A stretch of DNA of 64,000 nt from Pleionea litopenaei (GTDB taxonomy: Bacteria > Pseudomonadota > Gammaproteobacteria > Enterobacterales > Kangiellaceae): positions 3,692,001 through 3,756,000 of the forward strand of contig NZ_CP133548.1 in the NCBI RefSeq assembly GCF_031198435.1, in the 5' to 3' direction. The notes beneath the pieces were generated by a model. That model saw only the letters and a list, made by a program, of their open reading frames with translations, searched no databases and was not told the origin of the DNA. The translations under genes were made by a program, and so were the position numbers. This document shows, piece by piece, positions 3,962 to 28,051 of the stretch; the first letter of the stretch is position 1; the number at the start of each line of letters is the position of its first letter.

Positions 3962-4462
3962 GCGCTCCAGGCGCTGCTCGTCGAACCCGTAACACGGGTT
4001 ACTCATCCTTACCTGACCCACAAACAAAAAAGGCCCACCTTTCGGTCGATAGAAAGTTTGCCGGCTTGTCTGTTTTCTGATTTTCGCAACGATCAGTTAC
4101 CGGCGGGAATACTCGGCACATCCATGTGCCTCGCCCTAGCGGGCCATCGTCATACTTCCGATGTTCGGCAGCGCTCCAGTCGCTGCTCGTCGAACCCTTA
4201 ACGCGGGTTTTCATCCACACCAACCCCACAAACAAAAAAGGCCCACCTTTCGGTGAATAGAAAGTTTGCCGGCTTGTCTGTTTTCTGATTTTCGCAACGA
4301 TCAGTTACCGGCGGGAATACTCGGCACATCCATGTGCCTCGCCCTAGCGGGCCATCGTCATACTTCCGATGTTCGGCAGCGCTCCAGGCGCTGCTCGTCG
4401 AACCTTAAACGCGGGTTTTCATCCACACCAACCCCACAAACAAAAAAGGCCCACCTTTCGGT
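3962..4462. repeat. 209-bp tandem repeat array containing ssrA-terminator-like cores
   Basis: Two full units start at 3962 and 4171 and a third at 4379, each opening GCGCTCCAG. Unit lengths are 209 and 208 bp; the third is cut off at 4462 by the IS4-family copy. Every unit contains AAAAAAGGCCCACCTTTCGG, which on the minus strand is the 3' half of the ssrA terminator, plus palindromic GGCACATCCATGTGCC. Before the island arrived this array lay directly downstream of ssrA. Short open frames within it are chance products of the repeat. Confidence 0.85.
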
Positions 4463-4472
4463 GCAACGTAGT

Positions 4473-5810
4473 TCACTTAAGCGGAGCTGCCTTGCGATTA
4501 ACAGGATATCGGGTCTTTGATATTTTTACCGCCCTAGGCCGATTAGGCTTAGGGCGTTTGTCTATAAAAAGGATAGACAAGTCGCCACGCAGACTTTTCA
4601 GACGCTTTGGCGTATTACCCGGAGACACCGCTTTACTCATCACTTTTAGTTGACTCGCAATGAACTGACAAGCGTACTTAAAACTGATTTCGTTGGGCAT
4701 TCGACCATGCTCTACTGCTGCTTGGCTGGCTTCTCGTCTCACCAAGTTATAACCAAGTAATAGCCCCCATAACTCTTGATAGACAAGCTCGACCGTCTTA
4801 CTTCTCAACACCAAAGCATTGTGTTGCATCGAACTTTTTATGTCTCGATACCCCAATTCAATTTCCCATCTTTCGTGATAAAGCTCGGCGACGGATTTTG
4901 CATCGTAGTCTTCCCTAGACAGGGACGTAAACACGGTTTTCTGCTTACCCGCAACTTGATAGGTGACTGCTCTGACTTTCCATTTCTCAGGTAGGTTAGG
5001 ATTCTTCTTGCGTGCCTGTGGAGAGACTTTCATTTCAACCAGCATGTCATCGCTCTCTTTCTCATCCAGAAGTGTGTATTTCACCCCTTTCTTTGCAGGT
5101 AACAACCAATGTCTGTTCGAGCCACTATTTTGGAGAGAAAGCAGTAAGTCTGCGCCATAAAACCCCTTATCTAATAAGGTTACAGAGTTATCAGGTAGGG
5201 AGTTAATAAAGGGCATAGCAAGGGCAATTTCTCCACGACGATATGGGCTTATGGCTGCATCCACAATAACATGGGAGCGAACATTCATCATGGTGACCAC
5301 CCTTAATACCGGATGAGGTGTCTGCCTGTCACTAGATGTATTACCTGAACCAAAATGTTCTCTTAGTTCCGGTGTATCAGCGGTCCGAAAAAGAGCACCA
5401 TCAACAGCAAAGACTTGTAAACCTTGCCAAGTATCTTCAGGGTAACGTTCTAGACCCCAAGTGTGACCACATTGCCTAAACAGCCATTCCGGAGCGGCTT
5501 TACCAAGACGTTGTCTTGCTTGCGTTAGAGCACTTTTTGCTAACAACTCCTCATCAGCCAGTCCTTCTGCACAGACATTCATTCGCCGGGCTACTTCTGC
5601 AATAGGCTCATTGCGGAAGAACGCCATCCCGACAATGAGCCAAAGAACCATATCACTAGGTAAACGACGTCGGCGAATAGTCGCTTTATCGGAAAGTGTT
5701 GCCGCTTTGGCAATCCACTCATCAGGAATATGCTCAGAGAAAGTGGTTAACTGAGCGACATCAACGGGACTTTCTTCAAGAAAGTCGGCAAAACAGTTTT
5801 GGATAGACAT
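4473..5810 (-). CDS. IS4-family transposase (copy 1)
   Basis: 445-residue DDE transposase that cuts and pastes the surrounding IS. The catalytic core is visible: first Asp in FAVDGALFRTADT (about residue 136), second in TLLDKGFYG (about 215), and the YREK signature in YHERWEIELGYRDIK (about 325-339) carrying the catalytic Glu. The N-terminal 90 residues include the RRRRLPSDMVLWLIVGM helix block common in the IS4 subgroup. Length equals that of E. coli IS4 transposase. The ATG follows directly after a hairpin and T-tract, an arrangement that keeps outside transcripts from expressing it. The protein is identical to the one at 26614-27951, so the two copies are recent or kept alike by recombination. 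Confidence 0.9.
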   Translation of the reverse strand: MSIQNCFADFLEESPVDVAQLTTFSEHIPDEWIAKAATLSDKATIRRRRLPSDMVLWLIVGMAFFRNEPIAEVARRMNVCAEGLADEELLAKSALTQARQRLGKAAPEWLFRQCGHTWGLERYPEDTWQGLQVFAVDGALFRTADTPELREHFGSGNTSSDRQTPHPVLRVVTMMNVRSHVIVDAAISPYRRGEIALAMPFINSLPDNSVTLLDKGFYGADLLLSLQNSGSNRHWLLPAKKGVKYTLLDEKESDDMLVEMKVSPQARKKNPNLPEKWKVRAVTYQVAGKQKTVFTSLSREDYDAKSVAELYHERWEIELGYRDIKSSMQHNALVLRSKTVELVYQELWGLLLGYNLVRREASQAAVEHGRMPNEISFKYACQFIASQLKVMSKAVSPGNTPKRLKSLRGDLSILFIDKRPKPNRPRAVKISKTRYPVNRKAAPLK

Positions 5811-5815
5811 AAAAA

Positions 5816-5845
5816 AATCGGAAACCTATAAACAGGTTTCCGATT
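5816..5845 (-). terminator. intrinsic terminator at IS end, copy 1
   Basis: On the minus strand AATCGGAAACC-loop-GGTTTCCGATT is followed by seven T residues that run straight into the transposase ATG. A second palindrome, AAGGATCGGT-CA-ACCGATCCTT, lies 12 bases further out. Such end-proximal terminators insulate a transposase from read-in transcription. Confidence 0.8.
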
Positions 5846-5895
5846 GTCTCTCATCAGAAGGATCGGTCAACCGATCCTTATCTGATCTACATTGC

Positions 5896-6235
5896 GCTAT
5901 AGTGCGGAGAGTTCAATGATCACGAAAGAGCATGGGGCAATCTCTTTCCGACTCTCATGCCTTTTGGCCACAGCGTATTAACCACTTCCGCTGATTCATC
6001 ATATAACGCACCTTATGCGGATTCACTTATGTTCATCATGCTGACTACCTAGCACTCACCCGATTGTGGTTATCAGGAGGGTCGTCTTCTCGCGATTTCG
6101 ATCCCGATTGGCAAATACCAACCTTCGTTACATTGTCAGAGCCGCTACTTTATTCAGGCTCCTAGGTTCATCTGGTGATACAGATGGTTCACTCGTTTAG
6201 CGGTGAACAGCGCTTCATACGACTTCACGTCGCAC
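5896..6235 (-). mobile_element. 5' segment of a split group II intron (intron 2)
   Basis: Read on the minus strand this starts GTGCGACGTGAAG at 6235, the GUGYG start of group II introns, and proceeds through sequence typical of domain I until it is broken by the IS at 5895. The rest of the intron, with its reverse transcriptase and domain V, is at 24784-26603 at the other end of the island. Joining the pieces and counting the 10-bp duplication once gives about 2150 nt. Short apparent open frames here are not genes. Confidence 0.8.
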
Positions 6236-6482: not shown

Positions 6483-6513
6483 TATGTTGACTACTAAATA
6501 TATGAAAAATAGA

Positions 6514-8313
6514 TCAATGTGAGTGATGCAATAGCCCTGCGGAAATCATAGCTGTAGTTGCGATTTCCTGACATCGTTTGGTGCTTATACAGCTGCCTAA
6601 TGCGACTTGTTGATCAATTGAGTATATCGTTAGCCCTTCTTTTATCGTTTCTAAGACTTTGATATCGGCCAGTGCTTCAGGTTTTGCCGTGAGCGGGTTA
6701 TCAGACAAAATAACCAAGTCAGCGAGTTTACCTACTTCCAGTGAACCTTTGCTTTTCTCTTCTTTGTATTGAGTGGCCGCCCATAATGTTTGCGATTTTA
6801 ATCCGTCCAGCGCCGACACACGTTGTTGTGGCCCCAAAACATGACCAGTACGACTTACGCGGTTAACGGTCGCGGAATAAACACGCATTGAGTTAGGCAG
6901 AGCCACAGGAGAATCATGGTGAGAGGTATAAATCATGCCTAAATCTCGAGCCCAGCCGGTTGGTGATATATTCTCTGCTCGATCTTTGCCTAAAACGGAA
7001 TTCATGTGCCAATCACCCCAATAGAAAGTGTGCATTGGGAAAAACGACGGAAAAACGCCCAAGCGCTTAAATTGCTCTACTTGATCTTTACGAGCGGTCT
7101 GCGCATGTATTGCGATAAAACCTCGGTCTGGTACACCGTGTTTTTTCTCACTCGCTTCAATCCCATTAAGCAATTGATCAATTGCCGCATCACCGTTGAC
7201 ATGGGTTAACAGTTGCCAGCCATTACGTTGTGCTAACTCAATATACTCGGCGGCTTTTTCATCACTCATACTCGGGTAACCTTTGTAGCCTTTCTCTTGA
7301 CCAACCGGTGGAACAAGATAAGGTTCCGTTAGCCAAGCTGTTTTGCCCTGAGGAGAACCATCAAGATTAAGCTTAGCCCCAGCGACGCGGAATCCATTAG
7401 AATACTCGCTTGAGTAATACGGAGGAGAGATAACCTCTTGAGCCACTTGAATATCAGGATACGCGGCCACATCGATAGGGAGTTTTTCCTCTTGAGCTAA
7501 GTTGTACATGGTTTTCACTGCTGAAGTCGAAGCTCGACCTTCCTGAGCAGTGGTATATCCAAAACTCGCGTAAAGCTCCATACCCGCTTTAAAAATGACT
7601 TCATTCTCTTTGGCGTTGAGTTTGGCAAATAGCGGTAGCAAGGTCCCAAAGAAAGCAGTTTCTTCCAGCACACCATTAGGTGTTTTCCCATCACTCTCAC
7701 GACGAATCTTACCGCCATCAGGATCGGTGCTCTCTGTCGTCAAACCTGCCAACTCCAATGCTTTAGTGTTCAAAGTTGCTAAGTGACCTGACTGATGAAT
7801 AATAAGTACCGGAAGGTCTTTAGATACTTCATCCAATTCTTGGCGAGTAGGATGCCTTTGCTCTTTTAGCTGTGAGTCATCATAACCAAACCCCAGGATG
7901 ATTCCATGATTGCCGTTTTCTGGCTTCGCCACCCAAGTTCTTAGTTCTTCTTGCAGCGACGCAATACTATTTACATTACCATCAGGATCGGAAAGTAAGT
8001 TCGCAGATAAAGCTTGAATGCCAGTGGTAAAAACATGTCCATGGCCATCAATGAAGCCCGGGATCATGGTTTTTCCATCTAAATCAACAATTTTTGTCTT
8101 ATCATCTCGTAACTTCATCAGTTCTGATTCTTTACCAACCGCTAAAATTCGACCATTTTTAATCGCTAAAGCTTCAGCGGTAAGGTCAGAGTCGTTGACC
8201 GTAATAATATCTCCGCCAACATAGATTCTATCCGCAAAAGGTTTTGTTGGGCTTGCAGCCAAAGTGATACAACTGACAGATAGTAAAGCGAATGCCAAAG
8301 TTGAGAGCCTCAT
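6514..8313 (-). CDS. exported amidohydrolase family 3 (YtcJ-like)
   Basis: 599 residues with a Sec signal peptide (about 1-20, MRLSTLAFALLSVSCITLAA) and a YtcJ-type metal-dependent amidohydrolase fold. Metal-ligand motifs are in order: HGH in MIPGFIDGHGHV (about 90), HQSGH in the middle, HVNGDAA (about 367), IHAQ, and a late HHDSPVALP (about 470) supplying the catalytic Asp. The C-terminal beta-sandwich strand GSLEVGKLADLVILSDNP is typical. Substrates in this family are varied amides and cyclic imides; I cannot name this one. GGAGGAG precedes the ATG. An IS3-family element ends only 27 bases upstream, so the native promoter has been displaced. A second, unlike YtcJ-type enzyme is at 13131. 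Confidence 0.8.
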   Translation of the reverse strand: MRLSTLAFALLSVSCITLAASPTKPFADRIYVGGDIITVNDSDLTAEALAIKNGRILAVGKESELMKLRDDKTKIVDLDGKTMIPGFIDGHGHVFTTGIQALSANLLSDPDGNVNSIASLQEELRTWVAKPENGNHGIILGFGYDDSQLKEQRHPTRQELDEVSKDLPVLIIHQSGHLATLNTKALELAGLTTESTDPDGGKIRRESDGKTPNGVLEETAFFGTLLPLFAKLNAKENEVIFKAGMELYASFGYTTAQEGRASTSAVKTMYNLAQEEKLPIDVAAYPDIQVAQEVISPPYYSSEYSNGFRVAGAKLNLDGSPQGKTAWLTEPYLVPPVGQEKGYKGYPSMSDEKAAEYIELAQRNGWQLLTHVNGDAAIDQLLNGIEASEKKHGVPDRGFIAIHAQTARKDQVEQFKRLGVFPSFFPMHTFYWGDWHMNSVLGKDRAENISPTGWARDLGMIYTSHHDSPVALPNSMRVYSATVNRVSRTGHVLGPQQRVSALDGLKSQTLWAATQYKEEKSKGSLEVGKLADLVILSDNPLTAKPEALADIKVLETIKEGLTIYSIDQQVALGSCISTKRCQEIATTAMISAGLLHHSH

Positions 8314-8358
8314 TTTGTTTCTCCTCCAAGGAACTATGAATGAATCGCCACCAATAAA

Positions 8359-8825
8359 CTAGACACTTCCCAGCCGTTCTTGGTAACGGGTTTCATACTC
8401 TACCGGTGACAGCAGATTATTGGAACCATGTTTTCGTTTGCTGTTATAAAACATTTCTATGTAATCAAACACATCGCTTCTGGCTTCATCCCGTGTTGAG
8501 TAGATCTTGCGTTTGATCCGTTCACGCTTCAGCAGCTGGAAAAAACTTTCGGCTACAGCGTTATCATGGCAATTTCCGCGTCGGCTCATACTGCCTTGCA
8601 AGCCATGAGTTTTAAGGAATGCCTGCCAATCGTGGCTGGTGTATTGGCTTCCTTGATCGGAATGCACCATCACCTGCTTTTTCGGCTGACGTCGCCAAAC
8701 CGCCATCAGTAATGCGTTTAATACGATGTCTTTACTGATTTGGGAATGCATCGACCAACCTACAACTTTGCGGGAGAACAGATCCACCACGACGGCCAGA
8801 TACAACCACCCTTCGTGTGTCCGGA
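8359..8825 (-). CDS. IS3-family OrfB transposase, 3' exon
   Basis: C-terminal two-thirds of the DDE catalytic domain. After the intron junction the frame reads RTHEGWLYLAVVVDLFSRKVVGW, then HSDQGSQYTSHDW with the second catalytic Asp, NCHDNAVAESFFQLLK with the catalytic Glu, and FYNSKRKHGSNNLLSPVEYE near the end. It joins in frame with the 5' exon (11099-11539) if the intron is removed: TAT-A plus TC-CGG gives Tyr-Ile-Arg, the expected DITYIRTHEGW motif. It has no start of its own, so expression needs splicing. Confidence 0.85.
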
Positions 8826-11098
8826 GTAGAGTAAGAGACTGAGCGTAGTCGAACTATCTCTCAGCCTCTCCTCTCCGAACCGGACGTGCACCTTTCAGCG
8901 CATCCGGCTCTCCATTTAATTGCAGCCGAAGGCCATAGCAACATCTTTGTACTTAGAAGTGACCGTGTTTCGCGCTTCAACGCGACCATATGGATTAGAC
9001 TCAGGCAGCCGCCAACGGAACCGCATCTTGGCGCTGCTCACAAGACGGAACAGTGATGCGCCAGTTACCACACCATTGTTGGATTTACCGAAGTAAGTCC
9101 ATGTTTTCGCCATCTCTGGCGATGGCCTGCGTATTAACGTTTTCATTAGAGATTTAATGCTAGCTTTAAACTTAGCTCCTAACCAATGTGCCAGTTTCCA
9201 GAATACAGCACGGTCTACCTTGTCGTAGATTTTAGCCGTGTAGTCAGTAAAACAATAAAACTGTGACCAGCCTTTCAGCTTTTGGTTGAGTTTGATTATC
9301 TTATCAACGGCACTGCAACTGTGATCTGTAGACAGTTCGTTGGTTAGTGAGCGGGTAAAAGACTTGCATTTGTCTTTCGGTATCCCCGTCACTATTCGCA
9401 TATTTCCCTTGGGTCCGCGTTTACGGATAATGCGGTGCCCTAAGAAGGTGAAACCATCATTAACATGGGTAATATGGGTTTTGTCCATATTCAGTGTTAA
9501 CTTGAGCTTACCTTCTAAGAAGCATTTGCATTGGTTACGTATGGCTTCAGCCTCTTGCTTAGTGCCTTTGACTATCACGACAAAGTCATCCGCATATCGG
9601 CAGAAAGCCACGGCGGGCATCCATGTCCGTGTTTCACCATTTAGAGGCTTGCGTCCTCGTTTGAGACTGTAGTTATTGTACCAACGGTCTTTGCGTGCCT
9701 TTTTACTCAGGTAGCACTGGTTCAAGTATTGGTCGAACTCATTCAACATGATGTTCGACAATAATGGCGAGATAACGCCACCTTGCGGCACACCTTGATG
9801 AGTAGCATAGAACTGGTTCTTTTCAACATGACCCGCTTTCATATACCGCCAAAGCAGGTCAAGAAAGCGACGACAGTTGACCCGTTTACGCACGCATTGC
9901 ATCAATAACTTATGGTGGACCGTGTCAAAGTAGCTCGATAAGTCACCTTCGATTACCCATCGTCCGCTTGTTTCTCTACAATCGGTTAATTGCAGTTTCA
10001 CTGTGCGAATAGCATGATGCACGCTACGCTCTGGCCTGAAACCATAGGAAAGAGGATGAAAATCACTCTCCCATATTGGCTCCATTGCCATGAGCATGGC
10101 ACGTTGTACTATTCGATCACGAAGCGTGGGAATGCCTAAAGGACGTTGTTTACCCTTCGCTTTTGGAATATAGATACGTCTTGCTGGTTGAGGTTGGTAG
10201 TCGCCTGATAACAATTCACTTCTGATGGTTAACAGATAATTATCCAAGCTCTGTTCAAGCTGCACTTTGCTTATTCCATCCACGCCCGGCGTGTTCGCGC
10301 CTTTGGCCGATAAGGTGATACGTGCGGCTTCACGTAGCCAATCGATATGGCTTATCAGCCGCATTAAACGGTCAAACCGTTTCGTCTTATCGTTATCCGC
10401 CCATGTTGCTAACTTGCGTTGCATTTCACTGATTATCAAAGGTCTTCACCTTGTTAGGTCAGCTAGCGTGCTGACGCAAATCAATTAAACTGTGCCCCTT
10501 CGCCATGTAATGCGCTCTCCACATCTCAGACTACTACGAGCACTCCGCCAGCCTATTTATCATCGGGGTCATGCTCCCTTAAAATCTAAATAGACCTTCC
10601 CCGGTTTATCTACCCGAACTCAAGCATGATGAGGAGGATGCCGATCGCAATCTTTACCCTTATCGTTCTGTAAGATGGTGATACTCAAACACCGAATTGC
10701 GGTTTGGTGCTTGTCCCTTGCTTTCACTCGTACATATAGCGAAGCAATTTGGAAGTGATACCGCTTCATATTGTTCACTTCTGCATCACACTGCCTGTTA
10801 ACCCATGTAGGCAGTGGCGACGTTTCAGCCCATAGACGCGAATTAATCGGTTCATGTTCTTCATCCTTCCATCACTCAGTCTAGAGAAGCATCTTGGCTT
10901 AATGAGTTCGCCTCACTTCCCGTTGTCAGCGGGTTACATCACCCCATCAGCATACGATAGGTCACTGCCGCTCAGACTCAGTCACCTACCCAACTAGATG
11001 ACGCTATACCTCCTTCACTCCTGTTTAGAATGTATAGATTCCTGATAGATTCGTGATCCGTTTATGCTATCCATGCAAGTGCCGGATTCCGGGCACAC
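8826..11098 (-). mobile_element. group II intron (intron 1) inside IS3 orfB
   Basis: 2273 nt on the minus strand. The 5' end is GTGTGCCCGG, matching GUGYG, immediately after exon sequence ATCACTTATA; the 3' end is CTCTAC, matching the AY rule, followed by exon TCCGGACAC. Precise removal restores the orfB reading frame, which fixes both splice sites. It encodes one reverse transcriptase; the 660 bases between its 5' end and that gene are the structured ribozyme domains I-III. The last 90 bases hold the domain V/VI region. Confidence 0.85.
8916..10439 (-). CDS. ltrA: group II intron reverse transcriptase/maturase (intron 1)
   Basis: 507 residues that reverse-transcribe the intron and help it splice. 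Visible blocks: NTPGVDG (about 48), RRIYIPKAKGKQRPLGIPTLRDR, the palm signature YADDFVVI (about 283-290), QGGVISPLLSN (about 220), and GFTFLGHRI, then an X/maturase domain with LNQKLKGWSQFYCF. There is no HNH endonuclease domain at the C-terminus, so mobility would rely on nicked or replicating target DNA. The frame may start at the TTG at 10439, which has AAGGTGA upstream, or at the ATG at 10424 (MQRKLATW). All key RT residues are intact, so it could be active. Confidence 0.9.
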   Translation of the reverse strand: MIISEMQRKLATWADNDKTKRFDRLMRLISHIDWLREAARITLSAKGANTPGVDGISKVQLEQSLDNYLLTIRSELLSGDYQPQPARRIYIPKAKGKQRPLGIPTLRDRIVQRAMLMAMEPIWESDFHPLSYGFRPERSVHHAIRTVKLQLTDCRETSGRWVIEGDLSSYFDTVHHKLLMQCVRKRVNCRRFLDLLWRYMKAGHVEKNQFYATHQGVPQGGVISPLLSNIMLNEFDQYLNQCYLSKKARKDRWYNNYSLKRGRKPLNGETRTWMPAVAFCRYADDFVVIVKGTKQEAEAIRNQCKCFLEGKLKLTLNMDKTHITHVNDGFTFLGHRIIRKRGPKGNMRIVTGIPKDKCKSFTRSLTNELSTDHSCSAVDKIIKLNQKLKGWSQFYCFTDYTAKIYDKVDRAVFWKLAHWLGAKFKASIKSLMKTLIRRPSPEMAKTWTYFGKSNNGVVTGASLFRLVSSAKMRFRWRLPESNPYGRVEARNTVTSKYKDVAMAFGCN

Positions 11099-11539
11099 TA
11101 TAAGTGATATCTGTTACCCATACCTCATCAGGCGTTACCGGATTAAACTGACGCTGTAAACGGTTAGGCACGACGACATGGCTATCACCCTTGCGATACC
11201 TCGGCTTGCGGTAACCAACCTGTGCTTTTAACCCCTCAGATTGCATCAACCGGTAAACCCGGTTAATACCACAGCGCTCGCCCGTATCACGTAAATCAGA
11301 ATGGATCTTACGGTAGCCATACACGCAACCAGATTCGAGCCAGAACTGCTTAATTAAACCTGTAAGCCGACGGTTTGCCTTATCACGCTTTGACGACGGC
11401 AGCTTGCTCCATGCATAAAAACCACTGGGGTGAACATCCAGCATGTTACACAGCCAGCGTACCGGCCACCGGTCGCTGTGCTCCTTGATAAAGGCGTACC
11501 TCAGTCGGACAGCTTTGCGAAGTACGCCGCGGCTTTTTT
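11099..11539 (-). CDS. IS3-family OrfB transposase, 5' exon
   Basis: N-terminal part of OrfB, including the HTH_21-like block (HPSGFYAWSKLPSSKRDKAN region), YGYRKIHSDLRDTG and the start of the rve integrase core ending DEVWVTDITY, with the first catalytic Asp. It is entered by a -1 frameshift from orfA at a run of seven A followed by G (minus strand, 11533-11540), the usual IS3 slippery site, because orfB lacks a good start of its own. It is interrupted by the group II intron after the codon for Tyr. Reading on into the intron gives a false stop after about ten residues. Confidence 0.8.
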
Positions 11540-17280: not shown

Positions 17281-17289
17281 AATAAGACG

Positions 17290-18102: not shown

Positions 18103-21100
18103 GGGGTTCTAGGGATTTTCCCCTCTAAAAAGACTTAATCCTCTGTAGACCACACCAATAAATGGCTGCGGAGGTGGGTTACTACTTATAAGTGTGGCAA
18201 ATTAGGTAAATATCGTACATTTAATACGGAACAGCCCTGATATGGCCATCAAAAACGAAATTACTATTCTCACGAGAGCAGAACAGGCAGATCTTTATTC
18301 CCCACCCATTTTTTCAATCGAAGAACAACGTCTGTACTTTTCTCTGAACGATGCGGAATTGGCAGTTTTTCGGTCAATTCGTCTCAGAGCTCATAGATGT
18401 TACTTTGTCGCGATTTTGGGATACTTCAAATCAAAGCCCGTCATCCTAGATATCGCTTACTCGCAGGTTTCTAAGGATTTAATGTTCATCAGTAAAGAGC
18501 TGCTTGGCGGCAAGGGGCTCAGACCATTCACTCCCTCACAAAAACAAAAAGATCGACTCTACGCAAAAGTATTAGACCTTGCTGGTTATCACAAATGGGA
18601 CGAAAGTCAGCACTTCAATTCTCTTTTCGACCACCTTGTTCAGGTGGGCAATGCCTGGCTGGAGCCGCGTTACCTCTTTGATACTGCTATTGAATTCCTA
18701 ACCAGTCACAGCATTGCTATCCCTAGGTACACCGTACTCCAGAGACTGATAAGCAGAGCGATGCAGCAGGTCAGAAAAGACCTGGCGCACCAACTTAATC
18801 AACTCACCAGTCCTGAACTTCACGTCTTTCTGGACAGCATAACAGCCATTGATGACGGACTAAGCCTGAACCAGCTCAGAGGCGGTGCAAAAAGTCTGAC
18901 CGTACCTGAACTTAAAAAAGAGCTTGCCCTTTATCATCAGTTAGCGCCATGGCGCACGCAAATCAATGGCGTTATCGATGGGCTTAATCTGTCTCTTAAA
19001 AATCGACAACACTTCGGTGAGCTCATCAACTATTACGGTAGTAAACTCAAACGATTCAAACGCGCACAGCAGCATCTATGGTTGCTATGTCACCTGACAG
19101 AGCGGATACAACTGGCACTGGAACGGTTAACTGATGGGTTCATTTACCATATCCGCAAGCAACAAGAAGCTGCCAACACCTTTGCACAACAAGCAGTGTT
19201 CCTGTCCTGGCAGTCAGCCGCGGACAATGTCACGAAAGCGGCAGAGTTACTGCATCTGTTTGTGGATGAGAACATTGATGATAATCAACCCTTCTCAGTA
19301 GTCAGACAACAGGCATTGAAGGTCATGAATGACAGGGATATCCAGACCCTCTGCCTTTACCTGAAAAAACAGAAACGGACCGTGGAAGAGTACCAGTGGC
19401 AACATTACGATGAACAATGCAATCTCCTGGAGCAACTGTTAAGGCAGGTGTTTTTGTGCCTTGAATGTGAGGCCGGTAAAGGCTCAGAAGCCGTCGTCGC
19501 CCAACTTCAACAGATGCAGACGGAAATCGCATTCGGTGGACCACTGAAGACGATGGATACGTCGCTCATCCCGAAAAAGCACCTCCCATGGTTGGTTAAA
19601 CAGGATAACGTTAACCCGCAACGTTACGAATGGCTGCTCTACCGGCAGTTAACCTCACGACTGAATGGACGCATTTATTTGCCAAATGTTACCAAATACC
19701 GCGCACTGGAAGACGACCTGATCCCCCAGACATCGCAGGATACCTTGCTGGCCTCATCAACACTGGACAGACTAAAACAGCCCGCAGAGTTATTGTTACA
19801 GGAGAAACAACACCGGCTGGAAAGTGCACTCAAAGACGTTGCTCTCCATATTGATGAGGGAGACAATCGAAATGTGATCATGAAAAATCGTACCGGTACC
19901 CGCTGGCGTCTGCCGACCAAAAGCGCTACATCTCTGGTCAACAATCCCTTTTTTAAGCGAATGCAACCGGTCGGTATCGCGGATGTACTGCGGTATGTAG
20001 AGCGCGAAACCGGGTTCATGAAATGTCTGACTCATGTACTTCCGATACAAAAACAAGGGTTCACTCATCAGGATGATTTACTGGCCATTCTGATTGCCAA
20101 CGCCACTCACCGTGGTGTGTATGGCATGGCGCAGATCTCCGATCGAAGCTATGAACACCTGAGTACGGTGCAGGCCAACTATATCCGGCCTGAAACGCTG
20201 CATGACGCCAGCGACGTGATCAATAATGCGGTTGCAGCGCTACCCATCTTCCGCCACTACCATATTCAGGAGGACCAGCTGCATGCCAGTGCGGATGGTC
20301 AGAAATTCGAAACCCATCTGGAAACCTTTAAAACCCGGTACTCCTCTAAGTATTTCGGCACCAACAAAGGGATCACGGCCATGACACTGGTGGCCAACCA
20401 CAGCGCCCTCAATGCTCGGATCATCGGTTCCAACGAGCACGAATCACACTATATTTATGACCTGTTACAATCCAACAGCAGTGAAATCAAACCTGACGTA
20501 CTCTCGACAGATACACACGGTGTCAATCATGTTAACTTCGCCTTACTGGATCTATGCGGTTACAGTTTTGCACCGCGATACGCGCAGTTCAGTAGTGTCA
20601 TCAATGATCTGTTTGATGTGACTGAAAGTGAACAAGGCAGCACCATACTGGCGCTAAAGAAGCCTATCAGAACGAATGTTATTACAACGGGATGGCAAGA
20701 TATCAGGCGTATTGTTCTGTCACTTCAGACAAAGCGGACGACACAAGCAATGCTGGTAAGAAAGTTGTCTGGTTACCCTTCTGGACACCCAATATTACAG
20801 GCTCTGACGGAGTATAATCGACTGGTTAAAGCGCAATATTTACTTGACTACATCGACGATGCCAGTTTGCGGCAGTATGTGCAACGTGCCCTGAACCGGG
20901 GAGAAGCATGGCACTTCCTTAGACGAGCCATTGCGTCGGTGAATGGTGATCAGTTCCGTGGCAAAAACGAGTCTGAAATCGCTATCTGGAATGAATGCGC
21001 AAGATTGCTTGCCAACGCGATCATCTACTTCAACTCCGCGATACTGAGTCATCTTCTGGGACACTTTGAAGCGAGAGGAGATGAAGAGAAAGCGGGTATC

Positions 21101-21314
21101 ACTCGTGCTGTTTCGCCCGTTGCGTGGCAAAATATCAACTTAAGCGGAACGTATAACTTCACTAATACTGGGAAATTGCCCAATATTGGCGAAATAACAA
21201 GGCCGATAGTGGATGATTAGGCTCCAAGCTGAAAGTAAACCACCTCCGCAGCCATTTATTGGTGTGGTCTACAGAGGATTATGTCTTTTTAGAGGGGAAA
21301 ATCCCTAGAACCCC
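18103..21314 (+). mobile_element. Tn3-family element with 75-bp terminal inverted repeats
   Basis: 3212 bp. The ends 18103-18177 and 21240-21314 are inverted repeats of 75 bp with one mismatch, opening GGGGTTCTAGGGATTTTCCC. It carries only tnpA; there is no resolvase gene or evident res site. The flanking five bases differ (AAGTT left, ATATT right), and different genes are truncated on each side, so the usual 5-bp duplication has been lost, probably through an adjacent deletion. Confidence 0.9.
18242..21220 (+). CDS. tnpA: Tn3-family transposase TnpA
   Basis: 992 residues, normal for the family, which performs replicative transposition by DDE chemistry. The N-terminal region (LTRAEQADLYSPPIFSIEEQ) is the DUF4158 DNA-binding domain that recognises the inverted repeats. 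The catalytic half carries SADGQKFETH (first Asp, about residue 680), STDTHGVNHVNFALLDLCGYSFAPRY (second Asp, about 755-780; described, not quoted in full) and the GEAWHFLRRAI/NESEIAIWNECARLLANAI tail with the catalytic Glu. The ORF is intact, so the element may be mobile if a resolvase acts in trans. The ribosome site before the ATG at 18242 is weak (CGGAAC). Confidence 0.92.
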   Translation: MAIKNEITILTRAEQADLYSPPIFSIEEQRLYFSLNDAELAVFRSIRLRAHRCYFVAILGYFKSKPVILDIAYSQVSKDLMFISKELLGGKGLRPFTPSQKQKDRLYAKVLDLAGYHKWDESQHFNSLFDHLVQVGNAWLEPRYLFDTAIEFLTSHSIAIPRYTVLQRLISRAMQQVRKDLAHQLNQLTSPELHVFLDSITAIDDGLSLNQLRGGAKSLTVPELKKELALYHQLAPWRTQINGVIDGLNLSLKNRQHFGELINYYGSKLKRFKRAQQHLWLLCHLTERIQLALERLTDGFIYHIRKQQEAANTFAQQAVFLSWQSAADNVTKAAELLHLFVDENIDDNQPFSVVRQQALKVMNDRDIQTLCLYLKKQKRTVEEYQWQHYDEQCNLLEQLLRQVFLCLECEAGKGSEAVVAQLQQMQTEIAFGGPLKTMDTSLIPKKHLPWLVKQDNVNPQRYEWLLYRQLTSRLNGRIYLPNVTKYRALEDDLIPQTSQDTLLASSTLDRLKQPAELLLQEKQHRLESALKDVALHIDEGDNRNVIMKNRTGTRWRLPTKSATSLVNNPFFKRMQPVGIADVLRYVERETGFMKCLTHVLPIQKQGFTHQDDLLAILIANATHRGVYGMAQISDRSYEHLSTVQANYIRPETLHDASDVINNAVAALPIFRHYHIQEDQLHASADGQKFETHLETFKTRYSSKYFGTNKGITAMTLVANHSALNARIIGSNEHESHYIYDLLQSNSSEIKPDVLSTDTHGVNHVNFALLDLCGYSFAPRYAQFSSVINDLFDVTESEQGSTILALKKPIRTNVITTGWQDIRRIVLSLQTKRTTQAMLVRKLSGYPSGHPILQALTEYNRLVKAQYLLDYIDDASLRQYVQRALNRGEAWHFLRRAIASVNGDQFRGKNESEIAIWNECARLLANAIIYFNSAILSHLLGHFEARGDEEKAGITRAVSPVAWQNINLSGTYNFTNTGKLPNIGEITRPIVDD

Positions 21315-21518
21315 ATATTGAATGAGTTCTATCAAGTTACGTTCAGAAAGAAACTGTATGGCTCAATGGAAGAGTTGCAGAAAGATCTGGACGAATGGAT
21401 GGATTACTACAACAATCATCGTACTCATCAAGGAAAAATGTGCTGTGGCAGAACGCCAATAGAAACATTAGAGGATGGGAAATCAATCTGGGCTGAAAAG
21501 AATCTAGCCCAGATATAA
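21315..21518 (+). pseudogene. IS481-family transposase, C-terminal fragment
   Basis: Directly at the right end of the Tn3-family element a frame continues without a start codon: ILNEFYQVTFRKKLYGSMEE, then WMDYYNNHRTHQGKMCCGRTP and IETLEDGK. This is the C-terminal end of an IS481-type DDE transposase (the NxxRTHQGK and GRTPIE motifs). The first three-quarters, including most of the catalytic core, are gone. No matching N-terminal part lies on the left of the Tn3 element, so DNA was deleted. Confidence 0.8.
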
Positions 21519-21659: not shown

Positions 21660-23162
21660 TTAGATTTGAGCAACAACGCCGTCTTGATCTGGTTCAGCCA
21701 AGGCACATACCACCCTATTTCTGGTTTTTTTGGCTTCGTATAATAATTTGTCAGCAAAACCATAAACCTCTTTAAGTGTGAGCAAAGAGTGTTGCTGATA
21801 AATAAAACCACCAATAGAGATAGTTGCATAGTCAGATACCGAATTTCCTGAATGTTCGATGTGTAATGCCTCGATCTTATTTTTTATATGATTAAGTAAA
21901 TTCATGGTTTTATTTAAATCTTGCGATACGGTCACAATTGCAAATTCTTCGCCTCCAATACGATAAACATGATCGCTGGCTCGTCTTAAACTGGTTTTTA
22001 ATTCATTGGCGATCAGTTTAAGGCATTTATCACCACTCGGATGACCATATATATCGTTGTACTGTTTGAAGTGATCGACATCAATGATGGCTACGCTAAT
22101 AAACGGGTGTGAATCCGCTTCAAATAAGGCGTTGGTATCAGCTTCGAAGGCTCTTCTGTTTAAAATACCAGTCAATGGGTCTGTGGTTGAATGCACTCTG
22201 TCAGAGATGTTGTCAATAATGTTGATGTACTTCACCCTTGATGAGTTCTCGTTGGCGGGGGTGATTTTATATACAAGATGCAGATTTTCGTTAGGGAAAT
22301 CTACCCGTTGTTGATAAAAGCCTTGGCTGTGAATGCTGGCTTTGATTTCATCAGCCAACCATCGGGTTTTAGCGGCGATGGGTGATAAGTAGGCCTCCTC
22401 GTGCGGTTTAACATTCCCTGTCAGGTTAATCATGGCTTGATTGACTTCTAACACGCGAAAGTCGTCATCAAGCTTGGCGATTGCTATGTTGTCATCAATA
22501 AGTGTGCTTTTTTCATTTAAGGCCAAATGATAGTGATGCGTTCTGTGTTTGATAAAAACGCCCCCCAAAATCGTGTAGAAAAAAATAATGGCAGAGGAGA
22601 TAAGAACCGATATTTTTAATGCCGATTTAGAGTATTTATATTGTTGGTTGGATTTCTCTAATTTGCTATATGCAAAATTTAGGATTACATTCAGATGATT
22701 ATTTACATCTTGGGTCCACTCTTTTTCTATATTGTAAATATCAAGAAGGTCACCAATCGTATGCTTGCGATTTAGACTTTTCAGTACACCCCATTCCAGC
22801 GATGAATTATTTACTGATCGTTTAAGGTTATCGATATCAACGCTTGGCCCTAAGTAATGTTCTGATATGGCCGCCATGGTTGTATTTATCTTGGTCTTTA
22901 TTGAAAGATGATTTTGTTTTAGCTTGTCAACATCCTTGTTTTGGCTATTGAGTGTGATGTTCTTGATGTTGACCATCATCTCATTGATGTCGGATTTTAA
23001 GGAGAGAGCTTCATTAATCACTCTTTCAGGATGCCTTTCAATTAAGTTTCGATGCTTTTGAATATCTATGATATTTTTAGCAACCAACGAGCCGGAAACC
23101 ATAAAGCCTAAAAGAAAAAGCATGTTAATAATAATGATTTGTTTTTTACTTAAATTGTTCAC
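21660..23162 (-). CDS. membrane diguanylate cyclase with PAS domain
   Basis: 500 residues that should make cyclic di-GMP. Layout: TM helix about 9-28, a periplasmic four-helix-type sensor about 30-180, TM helix about 188-208, a PAS-like domain about 220-320, and a GGDEF domain about 330-490 opening TDPLTGILNRRAF. The active-site loop is RIGGEEF, a functional variant, and RASD five residues upstream is an intact inhibitory I-site. GTG start at 23162 with AGGT upstream. It lies inside the inverted-repeat-bounded segment of the island, so it is probably acquired cargo that could alter biofilm behaviour of the host. The ligand of the periplasmic domain is unknown. Confidence 0.85.
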   Translation of the reverse strand: MNNLSKKQIIIINMLFLLGFMVSGSLVAKNIIDIQKHRNLIERHPERVINEALSLKSDINEMMVNIKNITLNSQNKDVDKLKQNHLSIKTKINTTMAAISEHYLGPSVDIDNLKRSVNNSSLEWGVLKSLNRKHTIGDLLDIYNIEKEWTQDVNNHLNVILNFAYSKLEKSNQQYKYSKSALKISVLISSAIIFFYTILGGVFIKHRTHHYHLALNEKSTLIDDNIAIAKLDDDFRVLEVNQAMINLTGNVKPHEEAYLSPIAAKTRWLADEIKASIHSQGFYQQRVDFPNENLHLVYKITPANENSSRVKYINIIDNISDRVHSTTDPLTGILNRRAFEADTNALFEADSHPFISVAIIDVDHFKQYNDIYGHPSGDKCLKLIANELKTSLRRASDHVYRIGGEEFAIVTVSQDLNKTMNLLNHIKNKIEALHIEHSGNSVSDYATISIGGFIYQQHSLLTLKEVYGFADKLLYEAKKTRNRVVCALAEPDQDGVVAQI

Positions 23163-23446: not shown

Positions 23447-24762
23447 GAGACTGTAACTAATTTTGTGTAACTGCTTATCACCACATACTCTATTGAGAGT
23501 AAAGGATAGGCAGATGCAAATGAATAAGAAAGAGCTTGAAGCTTTCGCAAAGGAAGCGGCCAAAGGAATTAAAACGCCTGAGGACTTGAACGAATTTAGC
23601 CAGATGTTGAAAAAAATCACCGTTGAAGCGGCACTGAACGCAGAAATGGATGAACATCTGGGCTACGAAAAACACCAACAGTCCACATCAACCAATAGCC
23701 GAAACGGCAAGAGCAGCAAGCGCGTTAAAACCGAAGATGGCGAGTTTGAACTCGATACGCCTCGTGACCGCGAAGGCTCCTTTGACCCCAAACTCGTCAA
23801 AAAGCACCAAACCCGTTTTACGTCCATGGACGACAAAATTCTCTGGCTTTACGCGCAAGGCATGAGCACCCGTGAAATCGTCAATGCCTTTGACGAATGG
23901 TATGGTGCTGAGATATCGCCCACGCTGGTGTCCCGTGTTACCAATGCGGTTATCGAGCAAGTCGTTGAGTGGCAGTCACGCCCACTTGATGCTGTTTATC
24001 CCATTGTCTACCTGGATTGCATCGTGGTGAAGATCCGCCAGGATAAACGGGTCATCAACAAATCCATCTTCTTAGCACTGGGGATCAATACCGAAGGTCA
24101 CAAAGAGCTGATGGGTATGTGGATTGCTGAGAACGAAGGTGCTAAGTTCTGGTTAAACGTCCTGACGGAGCTTCAACAACGAGGTGTTGAAGACATCCTG
24201 ATTGCATGCGTAGACGGCCTCAAGGGCTTCCCTGACGCCATTAACACCGTTTTCCCTCAGACCCATATCCAACTGTGTATCGTGCACATGGTACGCAACT
24301 CCCTCAAATATGTGTCGTGGAAGGATTACAAAGCGGTCACGGCTGATTTAAAGCAAGTGTATCGCTCAGCGACTGAGGATGAAGCCTTGCTTGAGCTGGA
24401 ACGCTTTGGTGAAGTATGGGACGACCAATACCCACAAATCACCAAATCATGGCGTAACCATTGGCAGAACTTGAATACGCTGTTCAACTATCCTGAGGAT
24501 ATCCGCAAGGCCATCTACACAACCAACGCGATTGAGTCGCTCAACAGTGTCATTCGCAAAGCAATTAAGAAACGGAAAATCTTCCCCAGCGATGATTCAG
24601 CCAGAAAGATGGTTTACCTGGCGATTAAAGATGCCAGCAAGAAATGGACGATGCCCATTCAAAACTGGCGTCAGGCAATGAGTCGTTTTATTATCGAATT
24701 CGAGGAACGCCTCGAAAACCACATTAACTAAACGGCAGTTACACAGAATCTGTTACAGGCTC
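23447..24762 (+). mobile_element. IS256-family insertion sequence
   Basis: 1316 bp with inverted ends GAGACTGTAAC...TGTGTAACTGC (left) and GAGCCTGTAAC...TGTGTAACTGC (right, reverse complement). Flanked on both sides by TTTGAAAC, a perfect 8-bp target duplication, so it is an intact simple insertion. Confidence 0.93.
23514..24731 (+). CDS. IS256-family transposase
   Basis: 405 residues, typical mutator-type transposase. The catalytic Asp residues are in VYLDCIVVKIR (about 164) and ACVDGLKGFPDAI (about 230), followed by HMVRNSLKYV, and the Glu in TTNAIESLNSVIRK (about 340), all intact. The signature LGYEKH...RNGKSSKRVKTEDGE is present near residues 47-77. AAAGGA lies ahead of the ATG at 23514; an open extension upstream to 23463 is not needed. 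Together with its perfect target duplication this indicates a recent, possibly active insertion. Confidence 0.93.
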   Translation: MQMNKKELEAFAKEAAKGIKTPEDLNEFSQMLKKITVEAALNAEMDEHLGYEKHQQSTSTNSRNGKSSKRVKTEDGEFELDTPRDREGSFDPKLVKKHQTRFTSMDDKILWLYAQGMSTREIVNAFDEWYGAEISPTLVSRVTNAVIEQVVEWQSRPLDAVYPIVYLDCIVVKIRQDKRVINKSIFLALGINTEGHKELMGMWIAENEGAKFWLNVLTELQQRGVEDILIACVDGLKGFPDAINTVFPQTHIQLCIVHMVRNSLKYVSWKDYKAVTADLKQVYRSATEDEALLELERFGEVWDDQYPQITKSWRNHWQNLNTLFNYPEDIRKAIYTTNAIESLNSVIRKAIKKRKIFPSDDSARKMVYLAIKDASKKWTMPIQNWRQAMSRFIIEFEERLENHIN

Positions 24763-24783
24763 TTTGAAACTCGCTTTTGTCGA

Positions 24784-26603
24784 GTAGACGACACCTGTTA
24801 CCAAGTGTCGTCCCTCTAAGAACCCAGCGTGCAACTTTCACCGCACTAGGCTCAAGCCTTCACGAAGGCACCGATTGGCACCCAGCAACTTATAAAGCAG
24901 TGAGAGCAGGTTCATGCCAAGAGTTACGGCATTGCTTCTTTGATTTTCTCTTTGCCAAGTATTCTTGGTATTGAGGATCAAAAGGCGTAGCGGCACTCCT
25001 GATTTTGACATGTCTCTCTATTGGCACCTTAGCTATTTGAAACAGATTGAACTGACAATCCATATTCATGATCTTCTGCCAACCGTGAAATTGCCATTGA
25101 CCTTGACGGTTGATGAAGTATTTAAGCGCGATCCAAGTTCTTGATTTTGTTGGATGACGCCTTTTAGCCCAATGCCATAACGTATGGAATAGCTTGTGAC
25201 CTACATATCCGAATACCTGTTTAGCCACGCAGTGTCGATAGTAATTCGACCAGCCCCTGAGTTTCGGATTTATCAACTTGATTAAATCGTTAACAGGGAT
25301 GGTTGCGTGCTTTTTGATGAGTTCGCGCAAGTTGCTCAAGAACAGTAGTGTGTTGGATTTGCTCGGTTTAATGAGCAATTTCCCTTTGTACTTTCTATGG
25401 TTAAAACCTAGGAAGTCAAAACCATTACTGATATGAGTAATATGCGTTTTCTCTTCGGATAGTGTTAAGCCTCTTTCTGCTAAGAAATCAGCAATCAACG
25501 GTTTGATATCGTTCTCCAGCACTTCCTTTGAAGCACAGGTGACGACGAAATCGTCGGCGTATCCAATAAAGTTGGCTCTAGCACCCTTTTTGAGTGCAGT
25601 CGACTTTATGCGCTGCTCAAGTCCTGCAAGCGTCATGAGCATCAAGGTTGGGGATATGACCCCGCCTTGTGGTGTTCCCTCGTCAGTGCGATAGAACAGC
25701 CCTTTGTCCATAAAACCAGACTTTAACCATTGTTCCAACATACGTTTATCGATGGCAATGTTATCCATTAGCCATTGATGTCCGATCTTATCGAAACAGG
25801 CTTTGATGTCACCCTCAAGAACCCATTGAGCAGATCGTTTCATAGCCAAGCACTTGAAGCACTGCGCTATAGCATCAGCAGTGCTTCGGTTTGACCTAAA
25901 ACCATAGCTGTTAGGGTCGGCAAGTGTTTCTGATACTGGCTCCAGAGCAAGAAGATGAAGCGCTTGCTGCGCTCTATCGACCATGCAGGGGATACCCAGT
26001 GGTCTGAGCTTGCCGTTTTTCTTTGGGATGTAGATACGTTTGAGCGGCTTGGCTTGATAAGCTTTTCTGCTCAATTGATTGACTGCTTTCATGCGGCGCG
26101 TATCTGTGTTCCAGATAACGCCGTCGATTCCAGGCGTTTTACTGCCTTTGTTTTGTGATACCCGCTTAACAGCAAGAAGTTTTGCCGAACGCGAGTGAGT
26201 CAGTATCCACTGCAACGCTTTCGCTTTGCCGTGTTTACCTTCTCGTGTTGCCTTTGCAATACGCATCTGAAGCTTTAAAACATGGGATTCAACGGCTTTC
26301 CAATTGATGGATTGCCATTGAGCACTGTCAGGAGAGGCACTAATCTCTTTTGAAATCATCATTTGCGTTTCTCCTTGAATAAAGTTCTTCAAATTATCTT
26401 GCAACGGAAGACCAGTCGGAAGTCAGCTCACTTTCGTGATCAGATATGAATCTGTATCTGCATCGTTACAATGCAGCCTTCGCTTTTTCCAACATCCTCT
26501 GCCTGCATCACTATCGGTCGCAGAGACTTTCCCAGAGGGAGTGATACAGGTTTACCGTGTTCCGTATGTCGCGCAATGTCAGTGTAGATGCCCGCTATAG
26601 TGC
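24784..26603 (-). mobile_element. 3' segment of the split group II intron (intron 2)
   Basis: On the minus strand it starts at the IS boundary (26603), runs through domain I-III sequence, the reverse transcriptase gene, then a domain V hairpin recognisable as GAGCCTAGTGCGGTGAAAGT with partner CACGCTGGGTTC, and a domain VI stem ACGACAC...GTGTCGT ending CTAC at 24784. The 5' 340 nt are at 5896-6235. The IS inserted between them, then the circle opened there. Confidence 0.85.
24890..26362 (-). CDS. ltrA: group II intron reverse transcriptase/maturase (intron 2)
   Basis: 490 residues from the ATG pair at 26362, chosen because AAGGAG lies 8 bases upstream. Motifs: SKTPGIDGVIW (about 78), KRIYIPKKNGKLRPLGIP (about 106-123), DPNSYGFRSNRSTADAI, EGTPQGGVISPTLM, the catalytic FIGYADDFVVT (about 258), GFDFLGFNHR, and LRGWSNYYRH in the X domain. 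The tail (PIERHVKIRSAATPFDPQYQEYL) resembles that of chloroplast-like class introns whose HNH domain is missing or reduced. RT residues are intact, but the ribozyme is split over 20 kb, so it can no longer splice in cis from this locus; the protein could act in trans. Confidence 0.9.
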   Translation of the reverse strand: MMISKEISASPDSAQWQSINWKAVESHVLKLQMRIAKATREGKHGKAKALQWILTHSRSAKLLAVKRVSQNKGSKTPGIDGVIWNTDTRRMKAVNQLSRKAYQAKPLKRIYIPKKNGKLRPLGIPCMVDRAQQALHLLALEPVSETLADPNSYGFRSNRSTADAIAQCFKCLAMKRSAQWVLEGDIKACFDKIGHQWLMDNIAIDKRMLEQWLKSGFMDKGLFYRTDEGTPQGGVISPTLMLMTLAGLEQRIKSTALKKGARANFIGYADDFVVTCASKEVLENDIKPLIADFLAERGLTLSEEKTHITHISNGFDFLGFNHRKYKGKLLIKPSKSNTLLFLSNLRELIKKHATIPVNDLIKLINPKLRGWSNYYRHCVAKQVFGYVGHKLFHTLWHWAKRRHPTKSRTWIALKYFINRQGQWQFHGWQKIMNMDCQFNLFQIAKVPIERHVKIRSAATPFDPQYQEYLAKRKSKKQCRNSWHEPALTAL

Positions 26604-26613
26604 GCAACGTAGT

Positions 26614-27951
26614 TCACTTAAGCGGAGCTGCCTTGCGATTAACAGGATATCGGGTCTTTGATATTTTTACCGCCCTAGGCCGATTAGGCTTAGGGCGTTT
26701 GTCTATAAAAAGGATAGACAAGTCGCCACGCAGACTTTTCAGACGCTTTGGCGTATTACCCGGAGACACCGCTTTACTCATCACTTTTAGTTGACTCGCA
26801 ATGAACTGACAAGCGTACTTAAAACTGATTTCGTTGGGCATTCGACCATGCTCTACTGCTGCTTGGCTGGCTTCTCGTCTCACCAAGTTATAACCAAGTA
26901 ATAGCCCCCATAACTCTTGATAGACAAGCTCGACCGTCTTACTTCTCAACACCAAAGCATTGTGTTGCATCGAACTTTTTATGTCTCGATACCCCAATTC
27001 AATTTCCCATCTTTCGTGATAAAGCTCGGCGACGGATTTTGCATCGTAGTCTTCCCTAGACAGGGACGTAAACACGGTTTTCTGCTTACCCGCAACTTGA
27101 TAGGTGACTGCTCTGACTTTCCATTTCTCAGGTAGGTTAGGATTCTTCTTGCGTGCCTGTGGAGAGACTTTCATTTCAACCAGCATGTCATCGCTCTCTT
27201 TCTCATCCAGAAGTGTGTATTTCACCCCTTTCTTTGCAGGTAACAACCAATGTCTGTTCGAGCCACTATTTTGGAGAGAAAGCAGTAAGTCTGCGCCATA
27301 AAACCCCTTATCTAATAAGGTTACAGAGTTATCAGGTAGGGAGTTAATAAAGGGCATAGCAAGGGCAATTTCTCCACGACGATATGGGCTTATGGCTGCA
27401 TCCACAATAACATGGGAGCGAACATTCATCATGGTGACCACCCTTAATACCGGATGAGGTGTCTGCCTGTCACTAGATGTATTACCTGAACCAAAATGTT
27501 CTCTTAGTTCCGGTGTATCAGCGGTCCGAAAAAGAGCACCATCAACAGCAAAGACTTGTAAACCTTGCCAAGTATCTTCAGGGTAACGTTCTAGACCCCA
27601 AGTGTGACCACATTGCCTAAACAGCCATTCCGGAGCGGCTTTACCAAGACGTTGTCTTGCTTGCGTTAGAGCACTTTTTGCTAACAACTCCTCATCAGCC
27701 AGTCCTTCTGCACAGACATTCATTCGCCGGGCTACTTCTGCAATAGGCTCATTGCGGAAGAACGCCATCCCGACAATGAGCCAAAGAACCATATCACTAG
27801 GTAAACGACGTCGGCGAATAGTCGCTTTATCGGAAAGTGTTGCCGCTTTGGCAATCCACTCATCAGGAATATGCTCAGAGAAAGTGGTTAACTGAGCGAC
27901 ATCAACGGGACTTTCTTCAAGAAAGTCGGCAAAACAGTTTTGGATAGACAT
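26614..27951 (-). CDS. IS4-family transposase (copy 2)
   Basis: 445 residues, identical to the product at 4473-5810, with the same DDE and YREK motifs intact. The gene lies downstream of ssrA in the same direction and would receive its read-through, but the hairpin and T-tract at 27951-27986 intervene right before the ATG. Identity of the two copies supports recombination between them as the way the island entered and a ready way for it to leave. Confidence 0.9.
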   Translation of the reverse strand: MSIQNCFADFLEESPVDVAQLTTFSEHIPDEWIAKAATLSDKATIRRRRLPSDMVLWLIVGMAFFRNEPIAEVARRMNVCAEGLADEELLAKSALTQARQRLGKAAPEWLFRQCGHTWGLERYPEDTWQGLQVFAVDGALFRTADTPELREHFGSGNTSSDRQTPHPVLRVVTMMNVRSHVIVDAAISPYRRGEIALAMPFINSLPDNSVTLLDKGFYGADLLLSLQNSGSNRHWLLPAKKGVKYTLLDEKESDDMLVEMKVSPQARKKNPNLPEKWKVRAVTYQVAGKQKTVFTSLSREDYDAKSVAELYHERWEIELGYRDIKSSMQHNALVLRSKTVELVYQELWGLLLGYNLVRREASQAAVEHGRMPNEISFKYACQFIASQLKVMSKAVSPGNTPKRLKSLRGDLSILFIDKRPKPNRPRAVKISKTRYPVNRKAAPLK

Positions 27952-27956
27952 AAAAA

Positions 27957-27986
27957 AATCGGAAACCTATAAACAGGTTTCCGATT
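27957..27986 (-). terminator. IS-borne terminator now serving ssrA
   Basis: Same hairpin as at 5816-5845: AATCGGAAACC / GGTTTCCGATT with a 7-T tail on the minus strand. Because the original ssrA terminator is broken by the IS, this is the first complete intrinsic terminator downstream of ssrA. Confidence 0.75.
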
Positions 27987-28036
27987 GTCTCTCATCAGAA
28001 GGATCGGTCAACCGATCCTTATCTGATCTACATTGC

Positions 28037-28051
28037 ACCTTTCGGTGAGCC
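28037..28051 (-). terminator. broken half of the original ssrA terminator
   Basis: On the minus strand the remaining part is GGCTCACCGAAAGGT; the missing GGGCC and T-tract lie at 4443-4452 on the far side of the island. Rejoined they give GGCTCACC-GAAA-GGTGGGCC followed by six T. Confidence 0.8.

Follow-up and report, generated by a model that had tools for sequence, protein, structure and literature searches.

The window analyzed here, a 64,000-bp stretch of the Pleionea litopenaei chromosome (positions 3,692,001–3,756,000 of the 4,380,405-bp contig NZ_CP133548.1, in a genome of three contigs), contains a 22-kb island that lies between two copies of one insertion sequence (IS) and interrupts the terminator of ssrA, the gene for tmRNA. 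The features that define its borders are listed below, T1 and T2 denoting the two target duplications.

4452..4463: left copy of the T1 target duplication, CACCTTTCGGTG; half of the split ssrA terminator, the empty site being unbroken in congeners G001 and G002
4464..5894, minus strand: IS copy A, IS4 family, 1431 bp; transposase 4473-5810, minus strand
5895..5906: T2 target duplication beside IS copy A, CGCTATAGTGCG
5907..6235, minus strand: 5′ part of group II intron B, severed by the IS; Rfam group-II-D1D4-7 at 6052-6187
24779..26592, minus strand: 3′ part of group II intron B; maturase 24890-26404; Rfam domain V-VI match at 24779-24855
26593..26604: T2 target duplication beside IS copy B, CGCTATAGTGCG
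26605..28035, minus strand: IS copy B, the same 1431-bp sequence as copy A; transposase 26614-27951
28036..28047: right copy of the T1 target duplication, CACCTTTCGGTG; other half of the ssrA terminator
28062..28407, minus strand: ssrA (tmRNA), whose terminator is the insertion site

Borders and flanks of the island

The island is delimited by identical 1433-bp repeats in one orientation, spaced 22,141 bp apart and flanked by ACCTTTCGGT on the outside and GCTATAGTGC on the inside. An earlier, sequence-only reading of this DNA had placed the two copies and their matching outer and inner flanks correctly, but had taken the IS to be 1433 bp and the duplications to be 10 bp, and both lengths are revised by comparison with related insertion sites. 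The outermost G/C of each 1433-bp repeat is most likely a target base and not part of the IS: shifting the boundary inward by one base per side lengthens the duplication by exactly two bases at all 22 paired sites of related copies, and the same gain is obtained in seven of 10 full-length relatives. As for the exceptions, L067 has no duplication under the old or the new boundary, L078 has an 11-bp duplication with the old boundary and none with the new (an alignment end offset), and in L077 one outer base misfits the shifted boundary. Because the outermost bases are thus assigned to the target, the IS measures 1431 bp and the duplications 12 bp, T1 (CACCTTTCGGTG) being outer and T2 (CGCTATAGTGCG) inner.

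When each IS copy is compared with its own two flanks, no duplication is found for either; matches occur only in crossed pairs. At a given position, a perfect match of 12 bases would arise by chance about once in 16.8 million (4^12, at equal base frequencies). The T2 sequence is unique within the window, and that of T1 recurs once, at 4244, inside a 208-bp tandem repeat and with a copy of the same terminator arm. This tandem repeat occupies 4003–4462, just left of the island, as two full copies and a partial third, each unit bearing a terminator arm that resembles that of ssrA.

T1 sits just past the 3′ end of ssrA, and rejoining the outer flanks yields a strong hairpin (−50.1 kcal/mol in a 76-nt fold), followed on the ssrA strand by T residues. 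An empty ssrA terminator, for which the sequence-only reading proposed a search in related strains, exists in relatives: the arrangement is unbroken in two congeners, G001 and G002. In G001 it stands on the far side of an element of ~6.8 kb, where the ssrA 3′ end occurs a second time. Two further congeners are uninformative, the match in G004 beginning at query base 26, past the terminator, and G003 yielding only partial ssrA pieces; no genome of the same species was found for comparison, these four congeners being the nearest available. The G001 element (within C9:627600–636000, L236) is bounded on one side by ssrA and on the other by a 55-bp copy of its 3′ end with terminator, and encodes an integrase (PF00589, 3.3e-18) and a phage replication gene A-type protein. 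In this genus, ssrA thus seems to serve as a site of attachment.

The inner flanks lie 20.7 kb apart, and each is one half of a single group II intron. When rejoined, the intron is ~2.16 kb long and aligns in one piece with an intron of the Vibrio campbellii plasmid pVIBHAR over 2166 nt at 93.8% identity with two gap openings; the alignment spans the junction (position 1825) and has no gap at T2. A 600-nt probe centered on the junction matches 109 plasmid records, 32 of which cover at least 80% of the probe in one place. In a V. rumoiensis plasmid the intron is colinear across the junction point and is broken there by an IS110-family element (L024, ~7828–9163), which shares the intron hairpin of T2, so that a member of another IS family occupies the same spot. 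A candidate IS256-family element crossing the intron junction was rejected, being complete on one side. No second copy of intron B was found in the genome of P. litopenaei (40 of 44 candidates scored in one search).

The identical IS copies, the crossed 12-bp duplications and the continuity of both empty sites in relatives, read together, show a circular permutation. Since the inner flanks rejoin into one intron, the ends of the island would once have been adjacent, and the molecule would therefore have been a circle or a tandem of itself. The central claim of the sequence-only reading, that one IS had inserted once into a circular (or self-tandem) molecule now located at T1, is upheld by this single intron and its continuity in plasmid relatives; its expectation that each flank pair be continuous without the IS in relatives agrees with the plasmid introns for the inner pair and with G001 and G002 for the outer. 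On these comparisons it is very probable that the 22 kb of foreign mobile DNA within the ssrA terminator once formed a circle or self-tandem carrying a single IS.

Cargo of the island

The features recognized between the two parts of intron B are as follows.

6514..8313, minus strand: amidohydrolase (Amidohydro_3)
8359..11785, minus strand: pieces of an IS3-family transposase (8359-8805 and 11067-11785), split by group II intron A
~8823-11120: group II intron A; maturase 8916-10439
12244..12873, plus strand: short tyrosine recombinase, 209 amino acids; relatives on marine Vibrio plasmids
13104..15029, plus strand: second amidohydrolase
15390..16319, plus strand: oligonucleotide cyclase of a cyclic-oligonucleotide-based antiphage signaling system (CBASS); NCBIfam matches under their cut-offs
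16256..16951, plus strand: Cap15-like CBASS effector with two transmembrane segments (2TM)
18102..21315, plus strand: Tn3-family element, ISShfr9-like, 99.9% identical to plasmid copies; flanks without a 5-bp duplication
21660..23162, minus strand: diguanylate cyclase (GGDEF)
23447..24762, plus strand: IS256-family element with 28-bp inverted repeats and an 8-bp duplication, TTTGAAAC (by eye)

Matches to marine plasmids were seen for some modules, namely the CBASS stretch, the Tn3-family element and the recombinase. The CBASS stretch (a two-gene module, 15390–16951) is 97.8% identical to a V. navarrensis plasmid, with 31% of the 6.3-kb query covered; copies of the Tn3-family element at 99.9% identity also occur on many enterobacterial plasmids; the recombinase shares 90% amino acid identity with a V. 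europaeus plasmid protein; and the first amidohydrolase reaches at most 72% DNA identity to any plasmid record. In 39 other genomes of the host family, a threshold of E ≤ 1e-60 gave no match to the diguanylate cyclase and one to the second amidohydrolase, partial and at 42%; one of the searches scored at most 38 candidates per genome.

No replication gene was recognized in the 23 open reading frames (ORFs) of the cargo that were scanned, out of 87 of at least 45 amino acids, the remainder being shorter or overlapping scanned genes; one of an unfamiliar type may be present. The statement of the sequence-only reading that no such gene is seen in the circle is thus matched within this scope. Because the Tn3-family element lacks a 5-bp duplication and adjoins an integrase-core (rve) remnant, a replication region may have been removed by deletion beside it. 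The point where the circle itself closed was searched for and not found. A kinship of the island with the two small contigs of the genome was considered and rejected: neither the 6,568-bp contig nor the compared part of the 35,039-bp one (its first 20,000 bp) matches the window, and when the two halves of the cargo were searched against the whole genome, neither small contig gave a hit.

Three further observations concern repeats. Intron A (8823–11120) has a second chromosomal copy at C1:698019–700316, with 99.8% identity across 2298 bp. Two inverted repeats of ~145 bp, 77% alike, lie 6 kb apart at 17138–17287 and 23294–23435. Outside the island, repeats of ~130 bp with the palindrome GTAGGTTGGGTTAGCG...CGTAACCCAAC occur at 40601–42778 and also at 1066–2168.

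The insertion sequence and its target sites

The transposase is an IS4-type DDE enzyme encoded by a single ORF (PF13006, 4.2e-25; PF01609, 1.8e-23; NCBIfam NF033592 (IS4), 2e-82, over its cut-off), and its translation contains, by eye, the Y(2)R(3)E(6)K motif, YHERWEIELGYRDIK. This motif, direct repeats of 10–13 bp and -AATR ends describe the IS4 subgroup in the available portions of PMC2266710. Duplications are 12 bp at T1 and T2, 10 bp at a third identical copy elsewhere on the chromosome, and 10–13 bp at the 22 paired sites of relatives; under the new boundary, seven of the 10 full-length relatives have duplications of 10–14 bp (one of 14) and three have none. Compared with the subgroup consensus -AATR, the right end reads CAATG and the left CAACG, a partial fit. 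By sequence, the element fits subgroup IS4 of the IS4 family, with ends that match the consensus in part.

The nearest named relative among the plasmid matches listed is ISAeme15, at ~68% nucleotide identity, which was not named in the literature searched. Relatives were drawn from one contig scan as the best 80 of 402 matches, fragments of fewer than 150 residues being left aside for the list of closest copies. Among these 80, the closest by amino acid identity are from a Vibrionaceae metagenome-assembled genome (98%), Shewanella indica (97%, partial), Shewanella chilikensis (94%, partial), Thaumasiovibrio occultus (92%), Vibrio gelatinilyticus (92%, partial) and Aliagarivorans taiwanensis (91%). 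The arrival of the IS looks recent, because it was found in none of the 39 other genomes of the host family at E ≤ 1e-20, with at most nine candidates scored per genome.

The third identical copy is an ordinary insertion and stands at a terminator-like hairpin. It passes a strict rule for intrinsic terminators that is also passed by 18 of the 22 paired sites of related copies and by six of the seven full-length sites with a duplication, compared with 42 of 20,000 random positions in a control drawn from this window only. The rule fails at four paired sites and, among the seven full-length sites, at L072, while L067, L077 and L078 were unscored. The pairs were built by shared duplication from contig ends in three draft genomes (24 left and 26 right flanks, of which two left and four right stayed unpaired); two of the 52 matches there are internal and were left out of the pairing. 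Against such a preference, both T1 and T2 fail the strict rule, T1 through one pair that reads C-A on the plus strand but becomes G-U in the transcript, and T2 through having a hairpin of only 4 bp. T1 is a terminator by its fold; T2 is merely a short hairpin. Overall, the sites show a strong preference of this IS clade for intrinsic terminators. The available text of PMC2266710 reports marked insertion specificity, residing in target arms, for some elements of subgroup IS4, and the word "terminator" is absent from its main text. In the available portions of the literature on terminator-specific IS (including PMC2266710 and PMC6382973), no description was recognized as being of this clade.

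Joining of the circle to the chromosome and known systems

The explanation preferred here would run as follows. The 22,141-bp unit, one IS and 20.7 kb of cargo, would have been a DNA circle, probably part of a plasmid from marine gammaproteobacteria, in which the IS4-family element inserted once, at the hairpin inside the group II intron (T2). The same IS would also have lodged in the chromosome at the ssrA terminator (T1), and recombination over 1431 identical bp would have joined the circle to the chromosome, leaving T1-IS-T2...T2-IS-T1. The scheme presumes a free circle and not a tandem, and either loss of the replication region or a circle that never was a full plasmid; the reverse reaction could free the circle again. 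Recombination is preferred because 1431 identical bases are available to it and because the third copy shows that the IS has inserted alone in this chromosome. As a joining route, homologous recombination is favored at about an even chance, the footprint leaving the choice unsettled, and the whole account with this step included is held to be slightly better than even.

Several points weigh against recombination between a circle and a resident IS. The footprint alone cannot separate it from a route in which the unit transposed as a whole; neither a genome whose ssrA terminator holds just the IS nor a one-IS circle was found; and none of 2634 matching plasmid records covers 80% of the cargo in one place. 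Moreover, a circle without a replication gene would not outlast two independent IS events unless it lost that gene only afterwards or was carried on a larger plasmid. The circle and its location at T1, as proposed by the sequence-only reading, are borne out, but its further step, that the circle entered by homologous recombination with an IS resident at T1, is not established, since other routes give the same footprint.

A simple composite transposon, having an outer duplication only and unrelated inner flanks, is rejected, as the inner flanks here are a 12-bp duplication within one intron. The sequence-only reading had argued that only the outer flanks match in a composite transposon, which does not fully exclude such units: a composite excised from a dimer would leave an identical footprint. 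In this case the outermost IS ends, in T2 context, would be excised from a dimer or tandem and inserted together at T1 by cut-and-paste. T1 is a typical target, related copies lying mostly in terminators, so that a single event would be enough, with no prior IS at T1; the apparently recent arrival of the IS fits, and IS4-family elements are regarded as conservative movers. The route requires, however, a dimer or tandem as well as transposition of a 22-kb composite, and no dimer or donor was seen. It is judged somewhat unlikely, although better placed than the alternatives that follow.

A replicative cointegrate, in which the IS of the circle is copied into T1 and the two molecules are fused, would likewise give T1-IS-T2...T2-IS-T1. 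To our knowledge, IS4-family elements are not known for replicative cointegration, which counts against this route, and it is considered decidedly unlikely. Replicative cointegration is reported for the IS26 family in the available text of PMC6952201, and the word "cointegrate" is absent from the main text of PMC2266710, an absence that is no test of the route.

An assembly error would produce exactly this footprint if the 22-kb circle, with its one IS, were in fact a separate molecule that the assembler had merged, across the shared 1431 bp, with a chromosome carrying a lone IS at T1. The IS is present three times and exceeds short-read length, and many matches to related copies in the three draft genomes end at contig ends. 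Nevertheless, the window lies in a 4.38-Mb contig of a three-contig assembly with 100% completeness, as would be expected of long reads, and a separate plasmid is less likely because no replication gene was recognized in the cargo. Such an error is considered very unlikely. Still less probable, to the point of being a marginal idea, is an ordinary composite transposon formed without any circle, its ends being distinct copies of the intron that both carry the IS at one and the same position because it was copied along with the intron: this too would make the inner flanks complementary intron halves, but it needs an IS-bearing intron to have moved to a second place in the same orientation, in a genome where no second copy of intron B was found. 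Finally, ssrA is a common attachment site and G001 has an element with an integrase there, but an integrase-made island at the ssrA 3′ end can practically be dismissed, because the ssrA 3′ end is not repeated at the far border (elsewhere in the window the best matches to it are of 11–15 nt, E 0.61) and both borders are exact IS ends with duplications.

Features expected of joining through a shared IS are seen at this locus: two direct IS copies, crossed duplications, and an empty site of each kind that is continuous in relatives. The mark of an integrated plasmid, a replication gene within the segment, was not seen in the 23 scanned ORFs. Thanks to the intron that the IS had cut, the circular ancestry of the integrated island can be read from the sequence alone, and the island suggests a path by which Vibrio-plasmid-like DNA with a CBASS antiphage module may enter a chromosome outside that group. 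A terminator site would also mean that few functions are broken. A more speculative extension, considered unlikely, is that a terminator-loving IS4 clade acts as a docking system, with IS copies at harmless sites where one-copy circles dock and leave by recombination, no gene being broken. If so, the preference for terminators would make docking mild for the host, and the clade would be an IS4-family counterpart of the IS26 translocatable unit.

A shared IS is a known route of plasmid integration, the formation of Hfr strains by F being an example. The present case is like Hfr-type integration in having one IS on the circle and one on the chromosome, recombination giving direct IS repeats and crossed target duplications; it is unlike it in that replication and transfer genes are unrecognized in the integrated piece and that the chromosomal site is the ssrA terminator. 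We know of no targeted conservative reaction like that of IS26 in the IS4 family. In the IS26 translocatable unit, as the available portions of PMC4894685 and PMC6952201 describe it, a circle with one IS and adjacent DNA joins an IS-bearing molecule and restores a direct IS pair; the outcome is alike, with a one-IS circle joining a molecule that has the same IS, whereas IS26 belongs to the IS6 family and uses its own targeted conservative reaction, and the IS here belongs to the IS4 family. The IS2-like megacircle transposon of Burkholderia thailandensis (~210 kb; PMC6350997, in its available part) similarly comprises a large IS-flanked segment, a one-IS circle and insertion beside a pre-existing IS; its circle junction was detected by PCR, whereas the circle here is inferred from sequence comparison alone. 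With the IS4 subgroup as covered by the available text of PMC2266710, the element shares transposase family, YREK motif, duplications of 10–13 bp and the insertion specificity of some members, and it differs from that account in the preference for intrinsic terminators measured here. The island is thus a clean example of a known route of DNA uptake, with an IS4-family element, and not a new system; less usual is how strongly the IS clade prefers terminators.

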